64,000 nucleotides of DNA, taken from the NCBI GenBank assembly GCA_022824945.1, contig JAJDYX010000039.1, positions 62,001-126,000 of the forward strand, read 5' to 3'. Both the position numbers and the translations under genes were made by a program. This DNA comes from Candidatus Latescibacterota bacterium. Its GTDB lineage: Bacteria > Latescibacterota > UBA2968. Below, piece after piece: positions 16,533 to 24,713 of this stretch; within the stretch, counting starts at the first letter, position 1; every line of letters begins with the position of its first letter. The notes below the pieces were generated by a model. It worked only from the letters and a program-made list of their open reading frames with translations. It made no database searches and was not told where the DNA came from.

Positions 16533-17813
16533 TTATTCTGCTTCGTTCATTCCGATGACCCACTCCAATTGATGCGCCATTGCCACGCTGAAATCAGCAC
16601 CCAATCCCTTGCGTTCATATCGAATCTGTCCGTTTTGATCGATGATGCAGGTATAGGGAATCTCGGCGGAGCCAAACGCTTTTCGCATTTCCAGATCGCC
16701 CAGTGCAAAGGTTAAAAGCGGTGCGCTCTGGTACCGAAAGCTGGCGACCATATCCCGGCGCATTGAGCTATCGTTGTCGATATTTACCGCTAAAAATTCA
16801 ATATTTTGCTTGAGAAATTTCGCTTTGAGTTTTTGGAGATAGGGCAGTTCTTCTATGCACGGGCTGCACCATCCCGCCCAAAACGTTACCACCACAGCTT
16901 TGCCTTTTAAGTCTGCCAAAGTGATTTTCTCGCCGTCTAACTTTTGGACTTCAAAGGCCGGTGCGGGTCGTGAAATGCGTTTTTTTTCGACGCTTTGGAT
17001 GATTTTCTTATCCCTCGTGGCTTTTAAGGAGGCGTAGGTTTTGCTCATTCCCGCACCTGAACCGAATTTGCCAGCATAAGCCTGGCTCCACAGTTCTGCT
17101 ATATCCGTGCGGATAACTGAGGTTAGCAATAGTTCTGAGGCGAGTTCATAAGCCTCTGTCCAGGCTTTTTGGTCGTTATAGATCCGAAGCAAGTGGATCT
17201 TTGCTCTATCTACAGATGCCTGCCGATTTGCCAGTTCCAGATTGCCTAAATCCTTTCGGGTTTGCCATCCGCGAATTACAGTCTTTGCTTCAGCAACAGC
17301 ACGGTCGTGTTGTCCAAAGAGTTGATGAGCACGCGCCAATAGCTTGCGACAGCTTAGTTCTCTCAGGCTGTTTTCCCATTTTTCCTGGTTCTGCAATGCT
17401 TCTTTTAATGCGTTCTGTGCGTATAGAAATGTCTTATCAGATCGAACTTTCTTATCCACGAGTGCCCGAGCAGCCGCTTCATAAGCGCCATTGGTGTGCA
17501 TTCGCAATGCGAGCATTTTTTCACATAGTTCAATCAACAGGTGCGGATCATCGGTGACCTGCTGGTAATACCCCAGCAGGGTGATGGAGATGTCGCCTTT
17601 CAAAAAGGTGTTGGGGTAATCGGCAAGCAGTTGTTCAAGTCCCAATATGCCTTCCCAATACTGATCTGGGGTCTCGGGACGGTATCCGCTCGCAAATTGG
17701 CGAAATCGATTCTTTTCTTCTTTGGAATAGGTAGGTTGTTGTGCAAAACACAGAGTATATGCACTCAGGCACAATACCAAACTCACTGCCAGTTTACACT
17801 TGTTGAAATACAT
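16533..17813 (-). CDS. Exported TlpA/ResA-like thiol-disulfide oxidoreductase with helical N-domain
   Basis: A 426-residue periplasmic protein. The signal peptide (CKLAVSLVLCLSAYTLCFA) is followed by about 240 residues of TPR-like helices and then a C-terminal TlpA-type thioredoxin domain: PAPAFEVQKLDGEKITLADL, the active site FWAGWCSPCIEELP (C316 and C319 from this start) and IPYTCIIDQNGQIRY with the cis-proline. It would reduce or isomerise disulfides outside the cytoplasm. A GTG at 17825 overlaps the sigma-factor stop (GTGA), but GAGG six bases before ATG 17813 supports the shorter form. It is co-transcribed with the unusual sigma factor upstream. Confidence 0.85.
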   Translation of the reverse strand: MYFNKCKLAVSLVLCLSAYTLCFAQQPTYSKEEKNRFRQFASGYRPETPDQYWEGILGLEQLLADYPNTFLKGDISITLLGYYQQVTDDPHLLIELCEKMLALRMHTNGAYEAAARALVDKKVRSDKTFLYAQNALKEALQNQEKWENSLRELSCRKLLARAHQLFGQHDRAVAEAKTVIRGWQTRKDLGNLELANRQASVDRAKIHLLRIYNDQKAWTEAYELASELLLTSVIRTDIAELWSQAYAGKFGSGAGMSKTYASLKATRDKKIIQSVEKKRISRPAPAFEVQKLDGEKITLADLKGKAVVVTFWAGWCSPCIEELPYLQKLKAKFLKQNIEFLAVNIDNDSSMRRDMVASFRYQSAPLLTFALGDLEMRKAFGSAEIPYTCIIDQNGQIRYERKGLGADFSVAMAHQLEWVIGMNEAE

Positions 17814-17821
17814 GCTGAGCC

Positions 17822-19030
17822 TCACTTTCTGTCTGTCCAGATGAGATTCAATTTCCGTACCTGGGCATTTTTTTGATTTGCTTTTAATTGCACAAAGTAT
17901 GTTCCGTCGGGAAGTTCCCGTTTGGATAAGAATGTCGTGTAAGAACCTGGTGCTTGTGTTTTATTCACGGGCTTGGCTACTATCATGCCCTGAATATTGG
18001 CGCAAATGAGTTCTACAAAGACGGAGTCTTGATAAATCGTTTCTGGTATCCAGTACACAATTTTTACCAGTGAATCTTGTGGCGTACTTTCCATTTTGAA
18101 GTCCAGTTTTTCTGTATCGCCACTTGTATTGGAACCGGATTTGGCCTCTTGTCGCGAGGATTTTGTTTTGTCAGTTCTCTCAGGATTTGACTGCTCATTT
18201 TGAGCGAGTTCTTCCAATTCGAGTTGTATTTGGGGCACCTGGGATGGCTCAGTGTTTTCTTGTTCTAAATTCAACACTGCCGAAATCCCACCAAAATACA
18301 ATCCCGTTCCCGCGATACCTGCGCCGATGATACCCATTATTTTGATCATGCCTGTTCCTTTCAGTTTGGCGAGCAGACTCGCTTGCGTTGGTACTGCGTA
18401 CAATAGTGGAGGTAATGCGGCCATTACTTTGCGCGTCAATTGGCGCGTCGGACGTTTTTCTCGGAGTGTGTCTTCGACCAGTGGCATCAATTCGTCGCGC
18501 AAGCGGTTGCGTGCAACCTGAAGGCGACCGGTTACTGTGCTTTCGGGAATGTCGAGAAATGCGGCGATTTCGGGATAGGTCAGGCCTTCCATGTAGTGGA
18601 GCAATACGGCTTCCCGATAAATGTCTGGCAATGTATCAATAGCGGCTATGACGGCTTCTTTTGTTTCGGTTTTTTCCAGTGCTTCGTCGGGTAGGTCTGG
18701 CAATGGAAGTTCCGATACTTCAGGCGTTATGTCCCGAGATGTATCGTCAATTGAGACGACTGGGCGTTTTTGTTGAAGCCATTTATTGGACAAATTGAGT
18801 GCTATTCCCCGCAGCCAACCGGAGAATTTTTCGGGCGATTTTAGAGACTTGAGATGCATGTATGCCTCCACAAACGCATTTTGTACGATGTCTTCAGTTG
18901 CGGAAAAGTTGCGGATTCGACCAGCTACAAAGGCAAAGATGCGCCCTTGATACGTCTCGACCAGCGGTTCATAAGCAGCCTGGTCGCCAGCCAATACTTT
19001 TTCAACTTGTTCTGCATCGCGTTTGCTCAT
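17822..19030 (-). CDS. ECF sigma factor fused to a membrane helix and FlgD/T9SS-like beta domain
   Basis: Residues 8-85 are sigma region 2 (AYEPLVETYQGRIFAFVAG, DIVQNAFVEAYMHL) and residues 124-182 are region 4 (IDTLPDIYREAVLLHYMEGL, PESTVTGRLQVARNRLRDEL). After a basic linker a single hydrophobic helix lies at about 229-253 (MIKIMGIIGAGIAGTGLYFG), then a low-complexity Gln/Glu/Ser linker, and residues 318-402 form a beta domain ending GTYFVQLKANQKNAQVRKLNLIW. That tail has the pattern of FlgD-like or type IX secretion C-terminal domains (strand, NIQGMIV, GSYTTFLSKRELPDGTYF). A sigma factor tethered to the membrane with an exported sensor could be self-regulating; no separate anti-sigma gene is adjacent. 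The next gene in the operon is TlpA-like. Confidence 0.85.
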   Translation of the reverse strand: MSKRDAEQVEKVLAGDQAAYEPLVETYQGRIFAFVAGRIRNFSATEDIVQNAFVEAYMHLKSLKSPEKFSGWLRGIALNLSNKWLQQKRPVVSIDDTSRDITPEVSELPLPDLPDEALEKTETKEAVIAAIDTLPDIYREAVLLHYMEGLTYPEIAAFLDIPESTVTGRLQVARNRLRDELMPLVEDTLREKRPTRQLTRKVMAALPPLLYAVPTQASLLAKLKGTGMIKIMGIIGAGIAGTGLYFGGISAVLNLEQENTEPSQVPQIQLELEELAQNEQSNPERTDKTKSSRQEAKSGSNTSGDTEKLDFKMESTPQDSLVKIVYWIPETIYQDSVFVELICANIQGMIVAKPVNKTQAPGSYTTFLSKRELPDGTYFVQLKANQKNAQVRKLNLIWTDRK

Positions 19031-20148: not shown

Positions 20149-20230
20149 AAGCCGTCATCGCGGCATGATTCCCTGCTCAACACCATGCAGGGACAGGCTT
20201 GAGCCGCGATCCAGAGGTTTTGGTTGTCAT
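20149..20230. repeat. Dispersed GCGGC/GCCGC palindromic repeat, copy 1
   Basis: GTCATCGCGGC (20154-20164) and GCCGCGATCCAGAGG (20203-20217) form the outer arms (ATCGCGGC with GCCGCGAT). Inside is a second hairpin, CCCTGC with GCAGGG. The flanks TCAACAAAGCC and TTTTGGTTGTCATTAC also recur in other copies at 42018, 42070, 43271 and 49796. In this position it lies in the transcribed leader of the selenoprotein gene. Confidence 0.8.
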
Positions 20231-20260
20231 TACTTCCACCAATATATGAGGATAAATGCC

Positions 20261-23200
20261 ATGCGCAAATATCTATTATCCATCCCGATGATTCTACTCC
20301 TGCTCGCTGGGTCTGCCTCTGCCGTCACGGTTGGACAACAGATTGCTGATTTTTCTCTAACGGGTCTCGACGGCGGTACATATAAGCCCTCTGACTATCG
20401 CGGCCAGGTGCTCATACTTGCGGTCATCGGGTGGAGCTGACAGACCTGTAGAGCGGCGGGTCCGTCACTCGAAACACTCTGGCAAAAGTATAGCGATTCC
20501 AGCGATTCCAATGTTGCCATGCTCGGTCTTGATGTTTATAGGGGCAGTCAGTCACAGCTTACGGCTTTTCGCTCCGCTGCAAGAGTCACCTTTCCTTTGC
20601 TTCGCAACGCAGGTAGCCCATTCAGTCGTGAGGATCTCATTGTCGTTGATTCCGATGGGGTTGTGCGTTTTTCGCAAAACAGTTTGGGTTCCTCCACTGT
20701 CCGCAGTAACGCAATAGCCAAGGTTGATGAACTGTTGGCATCGCCCCCCTCTGCGCCAGCGATCTCTGTACAGCAAACGGCAGTTAATTTCGCCATTGAC
20801 GCAGGTCAAACGGGTGAACAGACGATTACGATCACGAACACGGGTACAGCGGATTTGGAGATAACAGGTATTGAGAGTGATGTGTCGGGATTGACGTTTG
20901 ATACTACGACGTTCACGCTGGAACCCAATGGTTCACAGACGGTTACAGTTACGTTGTCCGACGCCACGGAGGGCACGTTTTCGGGAAATATCACGATTTC
21001 GAGTAATGATCCGAATAGTGGAACAAGCACCTTATCTGTTTCTGTGATCGTTCAACCACCCCCTGCACCGGCGATCAGTGTGCAGCAAACGCCAGTTAAT
21101 TTCGGTACTATTGAGGCAGGTCAAACGGGTGAACAGACGATTACGATTGAGAACACGGGTACTGCGCCGTTGGAGATTACGGGTATTCAGAGTGATATGT
21201 CGGATCTGACGTTTGAACCTTCTACGTTTACACTGGAACCCGATGGTTCGCAGACGGTGACGATTAGGTTTCCAAGTTCGACAGAGGGCACGTTTTCGGG
21301 GAATATCACGATTTCGAGTAATGATCCAGAACGTGCAACACAGACCTTATCTGTTTCTGTGACCGTTCAACCACCCCCTGCACCGGCGATCAGTGTGCAG
21401 CAAACGGCAGTTAATTTTGGTACAGTTGCATTTGCACAACCAGTTCAGCGAACCATTACGATTACGAATACGGGTACTGCATCTTTGATGATTACAGGTA
21501 TTCAGAGCAATGTGGCAGGTTTGACATTTGATACTACGACGTTCACGCTGGAACCCAATAGTTCACGCACGGTGACGATTACGTTTCCGAGTTCTTCGGA
21601 AGGGACGTTTTCAGGGCTTATCACGATTTCGAGTAATGACCCGGATCGTGCAACCCAGACGTTATCCGTTTCTGTGACCGTGCAGCCACCACCTGTTCCG
21701 GCGATTAGCGTGCAACAAACGGCGGTTGATTTTGGTACTGTCGAGTTTGCTCAACAGGTTCAACAGATGATTACGATTACGAACACGGGTACAGCGAATT
21801 TGGAGATTACAGGTATTCAGAGCAATGTGTCGGGTTTAAGTTTTTCACCATCTACGTTCACGTTGGCCCCCAACGGTTCACAGACAGTTACGATTACGTT
21901 TCCGAGTTCTGTGGAGGGCACGTTTTCAGGGCTTATCACGATTTCGAGTAATGATCCAGAACGTGCAACCCAGACATTATCCGTTTCTGTGATCGTCCAA
22001 CCGCGACCTGTGCCGGTGATTGCTGTTCAAGAGACGGCAGTTGATTTTGGTACTGTTGAGTTTGCTCAACAGGTTCAACAGATGATTACGATTACGAACA
22101 CGGGTACTGCACCGTTGGAGATTACAGGTATTCAGAGCAATGTGTCGGGTCTGACGTTTGATCCTACGACGTTCACACTATCTCCGGACAGTTCGCAGAC
22201 GGTGACGGTGACGTTTCCGAGTTCTGTGGAGGGCACGTTTTCTGGGCTTATCACGATTTCGAGTAATGATCCAGATCGTGCAACACAGACATTATCTGTT
22301 TCTGTGATCGTGCAGCCGCGACCCGTACCAGCCATTGCTGTTCAAGAGACGGCGATTGACTTTGGTACTGTTGCGTTTGCCCAAGCGGTTCAACAGACGA
22401 TTACGATTCAAAATACAGGTACTGCTTCGTTGGAGATTACGGGTATCGAGAGCGATGTGTCAGGATTGACGTTTGATACTACGATATTCACACTGGCTCC
22501 CGACAGTTCGCGCACGGTGACGGTGACGTTTCCGAGTTCTGTGGAGGGCACGTTTTCGGGTAATATCACGATTTCGAGTAATGATCCAGATCGTGCAACC
22601 CAGACATTATCTGTTTCTGTGATCGTCCAACCGCGACCTGTGCCAGCGATCACTGTTCAAGAGACGGCAGTTGATTTTGGTACTGTTGAGTTTGCTCAAC
22701 AGGTTCAACAGGCGATTACGATTGAGAATACGGGTACTGCACCGTTGGAGATTACAGGTATTCAGAGTGATGTGTCTGGACTGACGTTTGATACTACGAT
22801 GTTCACACTATCTCCCGACAGTTCGCGCACGGTGATGGTGACGTTTCCGAGTTCTTCGGAAGGGACGTTTTCAGGGCTTATCACGATTTCGAGTAATGAT
22901 CCAGATCGTGCAACACAGACATTATCTGTTTCTGTGATCGTTCAGGCGGCGCCTGTACCTGCGATCAGTGTTCAAGAAACGGCAGTTGATTTTGGCACTG
23001 TTGCGTTTGCTCAAACGGTTCAACAGACGATTACAATCAGGAATACGGGAACTGCGCCGTTGGAGATTACGGGTATCGAGAGTGATGTGCAGGGATTGAC
23101 GTTTGATACTACGATGTTCACACTGGCTCCCGACAGTTCACAGACCGTTACGATTACGTTTCCGAGTTCAACAGAAGGTGCGTTTTCAGGGCTTGTTAGT

Positions 23201-24391
23201 ATTTCGAGTAATGATCCAGATCGTGCAACCCAGACCTTATCCGTTTCTGTGATCGTCCAACCGCCACCTGTGCCAGTGATTGCGGTGCAGGAGACGGCGG
23301 TTGATTTCGGTACTGTTGAGTTTGCACAATCGGTTCAAAAGACTTTTACGATTACAAACACGGGTACCGCGGATTTGGAGATTACGGGTATTGAGAGTGA
23401 TGTGTCGGGTCTGGCGTTTGATACTACGACGTTCACACTATCTCCGGACAGTTCGCGCACGGTGACGGTGACGTTTCCGAGTTCTGCGGAAGGGACGTTT
23501 TCTGGGCTTATCACGATTTCGAGTAATGATCCAGATCGTGCAAAGCACACCTTATCCATTTCTGTGATCGTTCAGGCGGCACCTGTGCCAGCGATTACTG
23601 TTCAGGAATCCGCAATTGATTTTGGTACAGTTGCGTTTGCACAACAGGTTCAAGATACGATTACGATTACGAACACGGGTACTGCACCGTTGGAGATTAC
23701 GGGTATAGAGAGCGATGTGTCAGGTCTGACGTTTGATACTACGATGTTCACACTGGAACCTAATGGTTCGCAGACGGTGACGATTTCGTTTCCGAGTTCT
23801 ACGGAGGGCACGTTTTCTGGACTTATTACTATTTCAAGCAATGACCCGGATCGTGCGAAGCATACCCTGTCAATTTCTGTGATCGTTCAGGCGGCGCCTG
23901 CGCCAGTGCTTGTTGTGGGGGCTCCCGCAATTGATTTCGGAAGTATTGATGCCGAAAAGACGGTTCAACAGACTTTTACGATTACGAATACGGGAACTGC
24001 GCCGTTAGAGATTACGGGTATAGAGAGCGATGTGTCTGGATTGACGTTTGATCCTGTGATGTTTACACTATCTCCGGATAGTTCGGCGACGATTACGATT
24101 ACGTTTCCCAAACCCATGGAGGGCACGTTTTCGGGTAATATCACTATTTTGAGTAATGATCCGGACCGCGCGACGCATACGCTGTCTGTTTCTGGCGTTG
24201 TCCAGCCGCTTTCTGTGGAAGCCAAATCGGATTTTGACGGCAATGGCGTAATCGAGTTTGCTGATTTTCTCCTGTTTGTAAGTGCATTTGGATCGTCCGA
24301 AGCCCAATACGATATCGATAGGAACGGTGCTGTTGACTTTCCCGATTTTCTCCTGTTTGTGAGTGTATTTGGAAAAACGGTTGACGGATAG
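20261..24391 (+). CDS. Giant exported thioredoxin-like selenoprotein with 11 ASH-type repeats and EF-hand tail
   Basis: One continuous frame runs from ATG 20261 to TAG 24391 with a single internal TGA at 20438-20440, read here as selenocysteine 60. Order: signal peptide (YLLSIPMILLLLAGSASA); TlpA/AhpC-like redoxin domain to about residue 160 (VGQQIADFSLTGLDGGTYKP, VLILAVIGWS-Sec-QTC-R, C63, GPSLETLWQKY, LIVVDSDGVVRFSQ); 11 near-identical units of about 105 residues (choice-of-anchor D/ASH type, each with NTGTA-LEITGI and GTFSG-ITISSNDP); then two EF-hand or dockerin-like repeats ending FADFLLFVSAFG and FPDFLLFVSVFG. The TGA replaces the first cysteine of a CxxC. Annotation pipelines would split it into a 59-residue fragment and a headless repeat protein starting near 20519. 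It is probably surface- or matrix-bound with calcium-stabilised anchoring. Selenoprotein status is inferred; sel genes are not in the window. Confidence 0.8.
20438..20467 (+). promoter_or_regulatory. Candidate bacterial SECIS element
   Basis: Starting at the UGA itself, TGAC (20438-20441) pairs with GTCA (20464-20467), then an A-C mismatch, then GACC (20443-20446) pairs with GGTC (20459-20462), extended by T47-G58 and G48-C57. The apical loop is TAGAGCGG (20449-20456). A UGA at the stem base with a small G-containing loop is the layout of SelB-recruiting bacterial SECIS hairpins, although this loop is somewhat closer to the UGA than in E. coli fdhF. Folded by hand. Confidence 0.6.
20757..24221 (+). 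repeat. Eleven direct repeats of about 315 bp inside the selenoprotein gene
   Basis: Units begin at about 20757, 21069, 21384, 21699 and so on every 312-315 bases, each coding one ASH-like domain. Long stretches (for example ATCACGATTTCGAGTAATGA) are identical at DNA level across most units, which points to recent duplication or recombination-driven homogenisation. Units 3-10 share FAQxVQ in place of the AGQTGEQ of units 1-2. Copy number is likely to vary between strains and to be difficult for short-read assembly. Confidence 0.9.
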
Positions 24392-24436: not shown

Positions 24437-24450
24437 TTGCCTTTAAAGTT

Positions 24451-24713
24451 ATGACGGAGAAAAGTAGCCTGTTCCCAACTGCACAGAGAGGATGTGTCCT
24501 GGGCTGAAAGCACATCTGCAGGATGCACAGGCGAAGTTCCCTCCCGAGCTGCAAAGCCGAATGGAAAGACAGTTTCCTATTAAGCCGAGCCGGTGGGTCC
24601 GCCGATAATGGACAGGATGGTGATGGCCATCTACTGAGTGGTGCTTTTAAGCGCAAATAGGGTGGTACCGCGAAAAGCTCTTTCGTCCCTATGATGACGA
24701 AGGGGCTTTTTTT
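24451..24713 (+). promoter_or_regulatory. T-box riboswitch, phenylalanine specifier
   Basis: The leader contains the T-box core AGGGTGGTACCGCG at 24659-24672. Upstream, GACGGAGAAAAGTAGC (24453-24468) is the normal opening of stem I with its AGTA bulge, and GAAG-TTC-C places a TTC (Phe) specifier codon at 24537-24539. The terminator is GCTCTTTCGTC (24677-24687) paired with GACGAAGGGGC (24696-24706) and a T-run at 24707-24713. The competing antiterminator pairs ATAGGG (24657-24662) with CCCTAT (24687-24692). Uncharged tRNA-Phe would bind the specifier and the NCCA-binding bulge and switch on pheST. T-boxes are chiefly known from Firmicutes and Actinobacteria, so its presence here is notable. 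Confidence 0.93.

Follow-up and report, generated by a model that had tools for sequence, protein, structure and literature searches.

The stretch of DNA analyzed here (the window) spans 64,000 nucleotides (nt) of contig JAJDYX010000039.1 from a Candidatus Latescibacterota bacterium and carries, on its forward strand, a gene of 1376 codons plus TAG (20261-24391) whose frame is broken by one in-frame stop only, a TGA that occupies the place of residue 60 in the surroundings VIGWS-U-QTCRAAGPSLE. We think it very probable that this window gene encodes a secreted, selenocysteine (Sec)-containing oxidoreductase of the thioredoxin fold, in which a redox head is joined to a long stalk of repeats and a small C-terminal tail (Table 1). 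An earlier note on this DNA had proposed a single frame interrupted at this TGA alone, with the context WS-(TGA)-QT-C-R and a redoxin domain that runs on past it; coordinates, frame, and context are all borne out, and the domain is continuous, matching PF00578 with 42.6 bits (cut-off 26) and PF08534 with 28.3 bits (cut-off 26.6). Pfam matches to the full protein are dominated by repeat families (25 of the 43 matches shown), so head and tail were scanned separately. The 11 repeats and EF-hand tail were found as the note had described them: the repeat region has a period of 315 bp and 10.8 copies, with neither Cys nor Sec inside. Upstream, GAGG at 20248-20251 sits 9 nt ahead of the ATG.

Table 1. 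Features of the window gene and of two neighboring genes (aa, amino acids; SECIS, selenocysteine insertion sequence)
Feature	Coordinates	Strand	Basis or remark
Predicted signal peptide, residues 1-21, MRKYLLSIPMILLLLAGSASA	20261..20323	+	By eye; close homologs start alike
AhpC-TSA/TlpA-like redoxin head, Sec60-Gln-Thr-Cys63	20324..20740	+	Pfam, AlphaFold2 (AF2) model, PDB matches
UGA, predicted Sec60	20438..20440	+	Conserved in homologs; SelA, SelB, SelD, and tRNA-Sec in genome
Putative resolving Cys63, the protein's only Cys	20447..20449	+	Cys in all 55 aligned heads
Bacterial SECIS candidate	20451..20470	+	3+4 bp stem with 1x1 internal loop; apical loop GGUC 20459-20462, 18 nt past UGA
11 tandem ASH/HYDIN-type/DUF1573 Ig-like repeats, ~105 aa each	20756..24206	+	Pfam, NCBIfam, repeat period
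EF-hand pair/dockerin-like C-terminal tail, 54 aa	24227..24388	+	PF00036, 29.9 bits (cut-off 25.4)
Stop codon TAG	24389..24391	+	Sequence
430-aa Cys-type redoxin (WCSPC, cis-proline kept)	16533..17825	-	Possible redox partner
ECF-type sigma factor, 402 aa, long C-terminal extension	17822..19030	-	Overlaps redoxin gene

Automated annotation would not report such a gene whole. The earlier note had expected it to be divided at the TGA, and a mechanical open reading frame (ORF) caller did return two pieces, 20519-24391 and a 91-aa piece at 20165-20440. Open-flanked TGAs are frequent by chance: the window contains 73, that of the window gene included, flanked by at least 40 open codons on the 5' side and 60 on the 3' side, and in 12 of these, again counting the window gene, a Cys lies two or three residues away. 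The argument must therefore rest on homology. With 1316 open codons past the UGA, an unbroken redoxin domain, and conservation of the codon in relatives, the present case is not a chance arrangement.

When 100 genomes were searched with the window head alone (C put for U), 78 of the 100 relatives matched at E values up to 0.001 among the matches listed. The best 51 matches comprise 50 with exactly one in-frame TGA and one with TAA; the first uninterrupted match, at rank 52, comes from another phylum. A profile of 55 heads was also run against 64 genomes of the phylum. Each of its best 53 matches (at least 139.9 bits) carries exactly one TGA, and these matches are spread over 34 genomes, all within the 47 of one class; an uninterrupted Cys form follows with 128.8 bits, and the matches listed below it include TGA copies (120.9 and 78.8 bits), a TAA copy (121.1), and a TAG copy (113.6). 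The profile was made from TGA-bearing heads and its ranking is biased towards them; a copy from genome G045 that was absent from it still fell within the best 53, with TGA at residue 60 and Cys63. The homologs thus carry TGA where the earlier note had placed Sec. Its Sec60-x-x-Cys63 motif, set at the first-Cys position of a CxxC, likewise stands: U occupies residue 60 in 59 of the 69 domain matches read, from loci fetched largely for carrying TGA, and Cys63 accompanies it in all 59. These represent 58 distinct heads, four of them from outside the phylum and three with frames that are short or broken, and Cys63 is present in 55 of the 55 that were aligned. One relative from the same genus (L120, OX638329.1) came from a pattern-based search of named genomes, a search that is limited to close relatives and may omit the window's own genome. 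We had set five Sec sequences aside from the family beforehand, namely four of other phyla and one TlpA with a UGC motif encoded beside selD; in a FastTree of 104 domains, 56 Sec sequences and a single Cys copy form one clade (support 0.96), with the UGC-type TlpA outside it.

A skeptic could read the TGA as a nonsense mutation or sequencing error in an ordinary Cys gene, leaving either a pseudogene or a protein that starts at ATG 20519 without an active site. A plain ORF call does give 20519-24391, and one relative (L099) has Cys at position 60 and, two codons upstream, a TAA. The recurrence of the TGA in the best matches of both searches speaks strongly the other way, since one codon would not show the same error in 34 genomes, and selection acts on the sequence downstream: in eight close pairs of relatives, none of which includes the window gene, the ratio of nonsynonymous to synonymous substitution rates (dN/dS) 3' of the UGA lies between 0.12 and 0.32 in seven and reaches 0.60 in the eighth, a pair with few changes. 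Purifying selection operates both before and after the UGA in relatives, and the Sec gene is kept beside a PhyH gene in all seven loci available from the genus. Given the recurrence and the dN/dS past the UGA, we rejected the pseudogene or error reading, whose chance of being right we regard as negligible. The Cys copy of the family (L099:8013 frame/L124, genome G012, contig C34), with TGC at codon 60, looks like a Sec-to-Cys change in a gene apparently broken.

The window's own genome (5.49 Mb, 98% complete, 6% contamination) encodes all four components that the earlier note had listed for checking. SelA scores 575.9 bits (cut-off 267.9), and the adjoining selB 391.3 (242.25); a tRNA-Sec scores 73.3 bits against a gathering threshold of 47, with anticodon UCA read by eye from the alignment; and beside it lies selD (371.3 bits, cut-off 125), which itself contains Sec (CGG-U-ASK). 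Across the phylum, selA exceeds its cut-off in 32 of the 34 genomes that have the family and in 13 of the 30 that do not. The two remaining genomes count against the proposed decoding: G004 carries a family gene with no selA match over the cut-off, and in G038 selA is only partial. A second match in the window's own genome also passes the tRNA-Sec cut-off (48.4 bits against 47).

The same picture, a frame open but for one UGA, would arise if a changed genetic code assigned UGA to Trp or another residue, or if the codon were a leaky stop giving two products. We rejected recoding and consider this family of explanations extremely improbable: UGA terminates other family genes, including a paralog in the same genome (contig C12) that uses one TGA as Sec and another as its stop; the UGA takes the place of the first Cys of the CxxC of related redoxins; and a tRNA-Sec is present. 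From these comparisons, residue 60 is very likely Sec.

How the UGA would be marked for decoding is a separate matter. A hairpin that starts 10 nt downstream of the UGA (4-bp upper stem, -8.7 kcal/mol) fits the bacterial SECIS model and is our candidate; in PMC13188914, that model places the loop 16-37 nt after the UGA. When codons were shuffled synonymously within 57 genes (one of the 58 left out) and 35 segments of 42 nt were compared, excess structure peaked in the segment that begins at the UGA (mean z -1.30, the lowest of the 35; below -1 in 33 of the 57 genes), with overlapping neighbors at -0.84 and -0.64 and the lowest distant segment at -0.68. A bSECIS-type scan, modeled on published criteria with a spacing of 16-29 nt and stem length not enforced, accepted 49 of the 57 genes and also 680 of 1425 shuffles; the mean z was -1.63. 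Because the register varies between clades, covariation was assessed on 12 sequences. In these, 84.5% of cells are paired, and four of the seven pairs change on both sides (for example, G-C to C-G and G-C to A-U). Their covariation score of 0.268 exceeds the 0.145 of shuffles and is reached by one shuffle in 500, and all slid versions of the hairpin score lower.

Several observations tell against this assignment. The hairpin of the window gene is itself weak relative to synonymous shuffles (z -0.81); the scan is unspecific, with 48% of shuffles passing; eight of the 57 genes do not pass, including six members of a single clade; the 12 sequences, out of 58, were picked by eye for similar register; and the number of pairs changed on both sides is matched by 25 of 500 shuffles, the number of pair types by 68 of 500. 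Members of the failing clade can form a hairpin whose loop lies 15 nt past the UGA, missing the rule by one nt; in two of them (L096 and L097), this hairpin lies within the minimum-energy fold.

The earlier note had drawn a hairpin beginning at the UGA itself. The minimum-energy fold does include the UGA, at -20.6 kcal/mol with z -2.39 on 51 nt (-1.04 to -1.88 on three other folded stretches), and one could take this structure for the SECIS. It is, however, not conserved: none of its 11 pairs changes on both sides in the 12 sequences, the 69.7% of cells paired falls below the shuffled mean of 72.1%, and its loop begins 9 nt past the UGA, whereas the bacterial model in PMC13188914 calls for 16-37 nt. 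For want of covarying pairs we rejected it as the SECIS, a role that we consider very unlikely for it, and the element is better placed 10 nt downstream.

The AF2 model of the head (predicted local distance difference test score 89.3) has a thioredoxin fold, with residue 60 directly before a helix at 61-78. Its best fold matches are ResA-type thiol-disulfide oxidoreductases and their relatives, with peroxiredoxins and glutathione peroxidases behind. The protein has no Cys apart from Cys63. Of 54 genes that reach a stop codon, among which four belong to other phyla and three have short or broken frames, 52 likewise encode no Cys besides the resolving one, counting 40 residues before the Sec and everything after it. 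The active site departs from its models at the cis-proline (cis-Pro), which in ResA aligns, by PDB sequence alignment rather than superposition, to residue 124; here, this residue is Glu. We surveyed 103 redoxin domains. No Pro occurs at this position in any of the 54 family members (two of them broken frames; one further member was too short), which have Glu in 28, His in 10, Asp in 8, Gln in 7, and Asn in 1, whereas cis-Pro is kept in 42 of 43 non-Sec redoxin domains from the same loci, the exception being the family's Cys copy with Ser. Five Sec sequences do have Pro at this place, and these are the ones set aside from the family above (the UGC-type TlpA and those of other phyla). The TlpA-type assignment of the earlier note thus holds in part: ResA/TlpA-type proteins are the nearest, but the missing cis-Pro argues against filing the protein as a ResA/TlpA enzyme despite the resemblance.

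The same substitution lends itself to another reading, in which the protein is a selenoprotein yet no disulfide or peroxide reductase, and Sec60 and Cys63 serve for metal binding or as carriers of selenium or sulfur. Besides the replacement of cis-Pro in 54 of 54 heads, it can draw on the available part of PMC2757866, where cis-Pro is said to possibly prevent metal binding and peroxiredoxins to carry Arg at that position; none of the 54 family heads has that Arg. The Pfam, PDB, and fold neighbors of the head, in contrast, are thiol-disulfide oxidoreductases and peroxiredoxins, and among 41 loci with 4 kb available to either side, 33 have another redoxin domain within 5 kb of the Sec gene, 27 of these on the same strand. 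Moreover, only L33, U60, C63, and L114 are invariant in the alignment of 55 heads, so that no additional ligand residue stands out. We regard the metal or carrier role as unlikely, and a role in disulfide or peroxide reduction, rather than any other, as somewhat favored by these comparisons.

The combination of a UxxC head, ASH/DUF1573 repeats, and an EF-hand/dockerin-like tail is a trait of the family. Its subfamilies f1 and f2 include 30 genes that end in a stop codon, of which 27 have the head, one to 11 repeats, and the tail and three are short or broken frames; a further three genes are cut by a contig end. The window gene has the most repeats seen, with five in the runners-up. The architecture that the earlier note had thought undescribed is indeed not named in the literature searched, but it is not unique to this gene. 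In clade f4, the repeat model finds no repeats, and of two proteins tested one has Por_Secre_tail and FlgD_ig and the other FlgD_ig. The window tail falls short of type I dockerin models (18.5 bits against 22.9; NF041540, 28.7 against 29), and that of the relative L064 passes (24.8 against 22.9). The tail module recurs in the genome, with 79 matches at E values up to 0.01, the window's included and some frames having more than one, and two cohesin matches exceed their cut-off, both on contig C44; tail modules and cohesins may perhaps form a surface assembly system. A full-length model of L064 renders the repeats well but has a low predicted template modeling score (0.41), which leaves it uninformative on domain placement.

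Redoxin selenoproteins with UxxC are known: Table 1 of PMC13188914 gives a Prx-like thiol:disulfide oxidoreductase (PF00578), a thiol-disulfide isomerase-like protein (cd02966), and a Redoxin family protein (PF08534). The window head resembles these in being of AhpC-TSA/Redoxin type with Sec for the first Cys of CxxC; judged by their descriptions, it may be set apart by the ASH-repeat stalk and dockerin-like tail (Por/FlgD-like in another clade) and by Glu, His, Asp, Gln, or Asn in place of cis-Pro. The Cys-type oxidoreductases ResA, TlpA, and DsbE (CcmG) are among its best PDB sequence and fold matches, but they are shown with CxxC and cis-Pro, and the NCBIfam models for ResA and TlpA lie far below cut-off (34.7 against 170 and 24.9 against 230). 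The UGC-containing TlpA selenoprotein of the same Table 1, of which one example adjoins selD in this genome, differs by its UGC motif and cis-Pro. NF053656, for redoxin (seleno)proteins with a TUGYCR motif, likewise joins a redoxin fold to a Sec motif, but gives the window only 12.9 bits against a cut-off of 100. The repeats match the OS_HP2/DUF1573 (UGC) selenoprotein model NF041425 with 264.5 bits (cut-off 100), yet they have no Sec or Cys motif, the Sec being located in the head; because this "(seleno)protein" model scores Sec-free repeats, automatic naming could assign Sec to the wrong domain. Fusions of thioredoxin-fold selenoproteins to further domains were reported from the Global Ocean Sampling (GOS) survey (PMC2398784), where the available text names PP2C-like, secretin-like, and unknown partners but no ASH/DUF1573 repeats or dockerin-like tail. 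Neither the window architecture nor Latescibacteria selenoproteins are named in the available portions of texts such as PMC13188914, PMC2757866, PMC2398784, and PMC8318568, subscription papers and supplements having been outside the reach of the search; the accessible part of PMC7081726 has no word beginning with seleno, and a word search of PMC12993501 gave no match. The present analysis adds a selenoprotein family, in 34 of the 64 phylum genomes examined, that gene callers would split in two; in it, Sec is combined with a long stalk of repeats and a tail of the surface type. The loss of cis-Pro in exactly the clade that uses Sec provides a natural test of the costs and benefits of Sec and of the role of cis-Pro.

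We posit that the hairpin at 20451-20470 guides SelB, together with Sec-tRNA, in inserting Sec at the UGA, and that the signal peptide exports the protein, which is likely to be held at the surface: the ASH repeats would serve as a stalk, and the tail, a module that recurs dozens of times in the genome, would act as the anchor. The Sec60 selenolate could then attack an oxidized substrate, either a protein disulfide or a peroxide, and Cys63 would resolve the intermediate as an Se-S bond, with the neighboring Cys-type TlpA-like redoxin as the most likely electron partner. Acidic residues, His, Gln, or Asn stand in for cis-Pro, to which the binding of peptide substrates is ascribed in thioredoxins, and we therefore think that the chemistry departs from plain ResA/TlpA disulfide exchange. 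A bolder proposal, speculative and in our view improbable, is that this substitute is the catalytic partner of the selenolate, making the protein a surface redox arm whose extracellular reductase or peroxidase chemistry is unlike that of thioredoxins and peroxiredoxins and whose stalk length is tuned by repeat number, in short a new class of selenoenzyme.

In the seven genus loci (L060-L066), the Sec gene is adjoined by PhyH in all seven, by the sigma factor gene in six, and by the redoxin gene and pheS in five each; some of these loci stop at a contig end, and L065 has neither redoxin nor sigma factor within its stretch. The redoxin and sigma factor pair stands beside the Sec gene in five of the seven, and the 430-aa redoxin looks secreted. 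The flanking proteins are 80-98% identical to those of the window (62% for one PhyH), against 52-58% for the Sec head, which suggests fast or diversifying evolution of the head. Tandem Sec-head copies occur in L060 and L061. Elsewhere in the window's own genome, the UGC-type TlpA has its in-frame TGA at L117:7959-7961 (contig C29, minus strand), beside selD and tRNA-Sec, which brings the candidate selenoprotein genes to at least four (SelD, the window gene, its C12 paralog, and this TlpA). Downstream of the Sec paralog, L098:5033-6829 (minus strand) encodes a 598-aa protein with an AhpC-TSA domain, in which CPAS replaces CxxC, and a copper monooxygenase C-terminal domain; genes for a TPR protein and an aquaporin are nearby. 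Directly 3' of the window gene, a T-box leader (24442-24693, 109.2 bits) precedes pheS/pheT.

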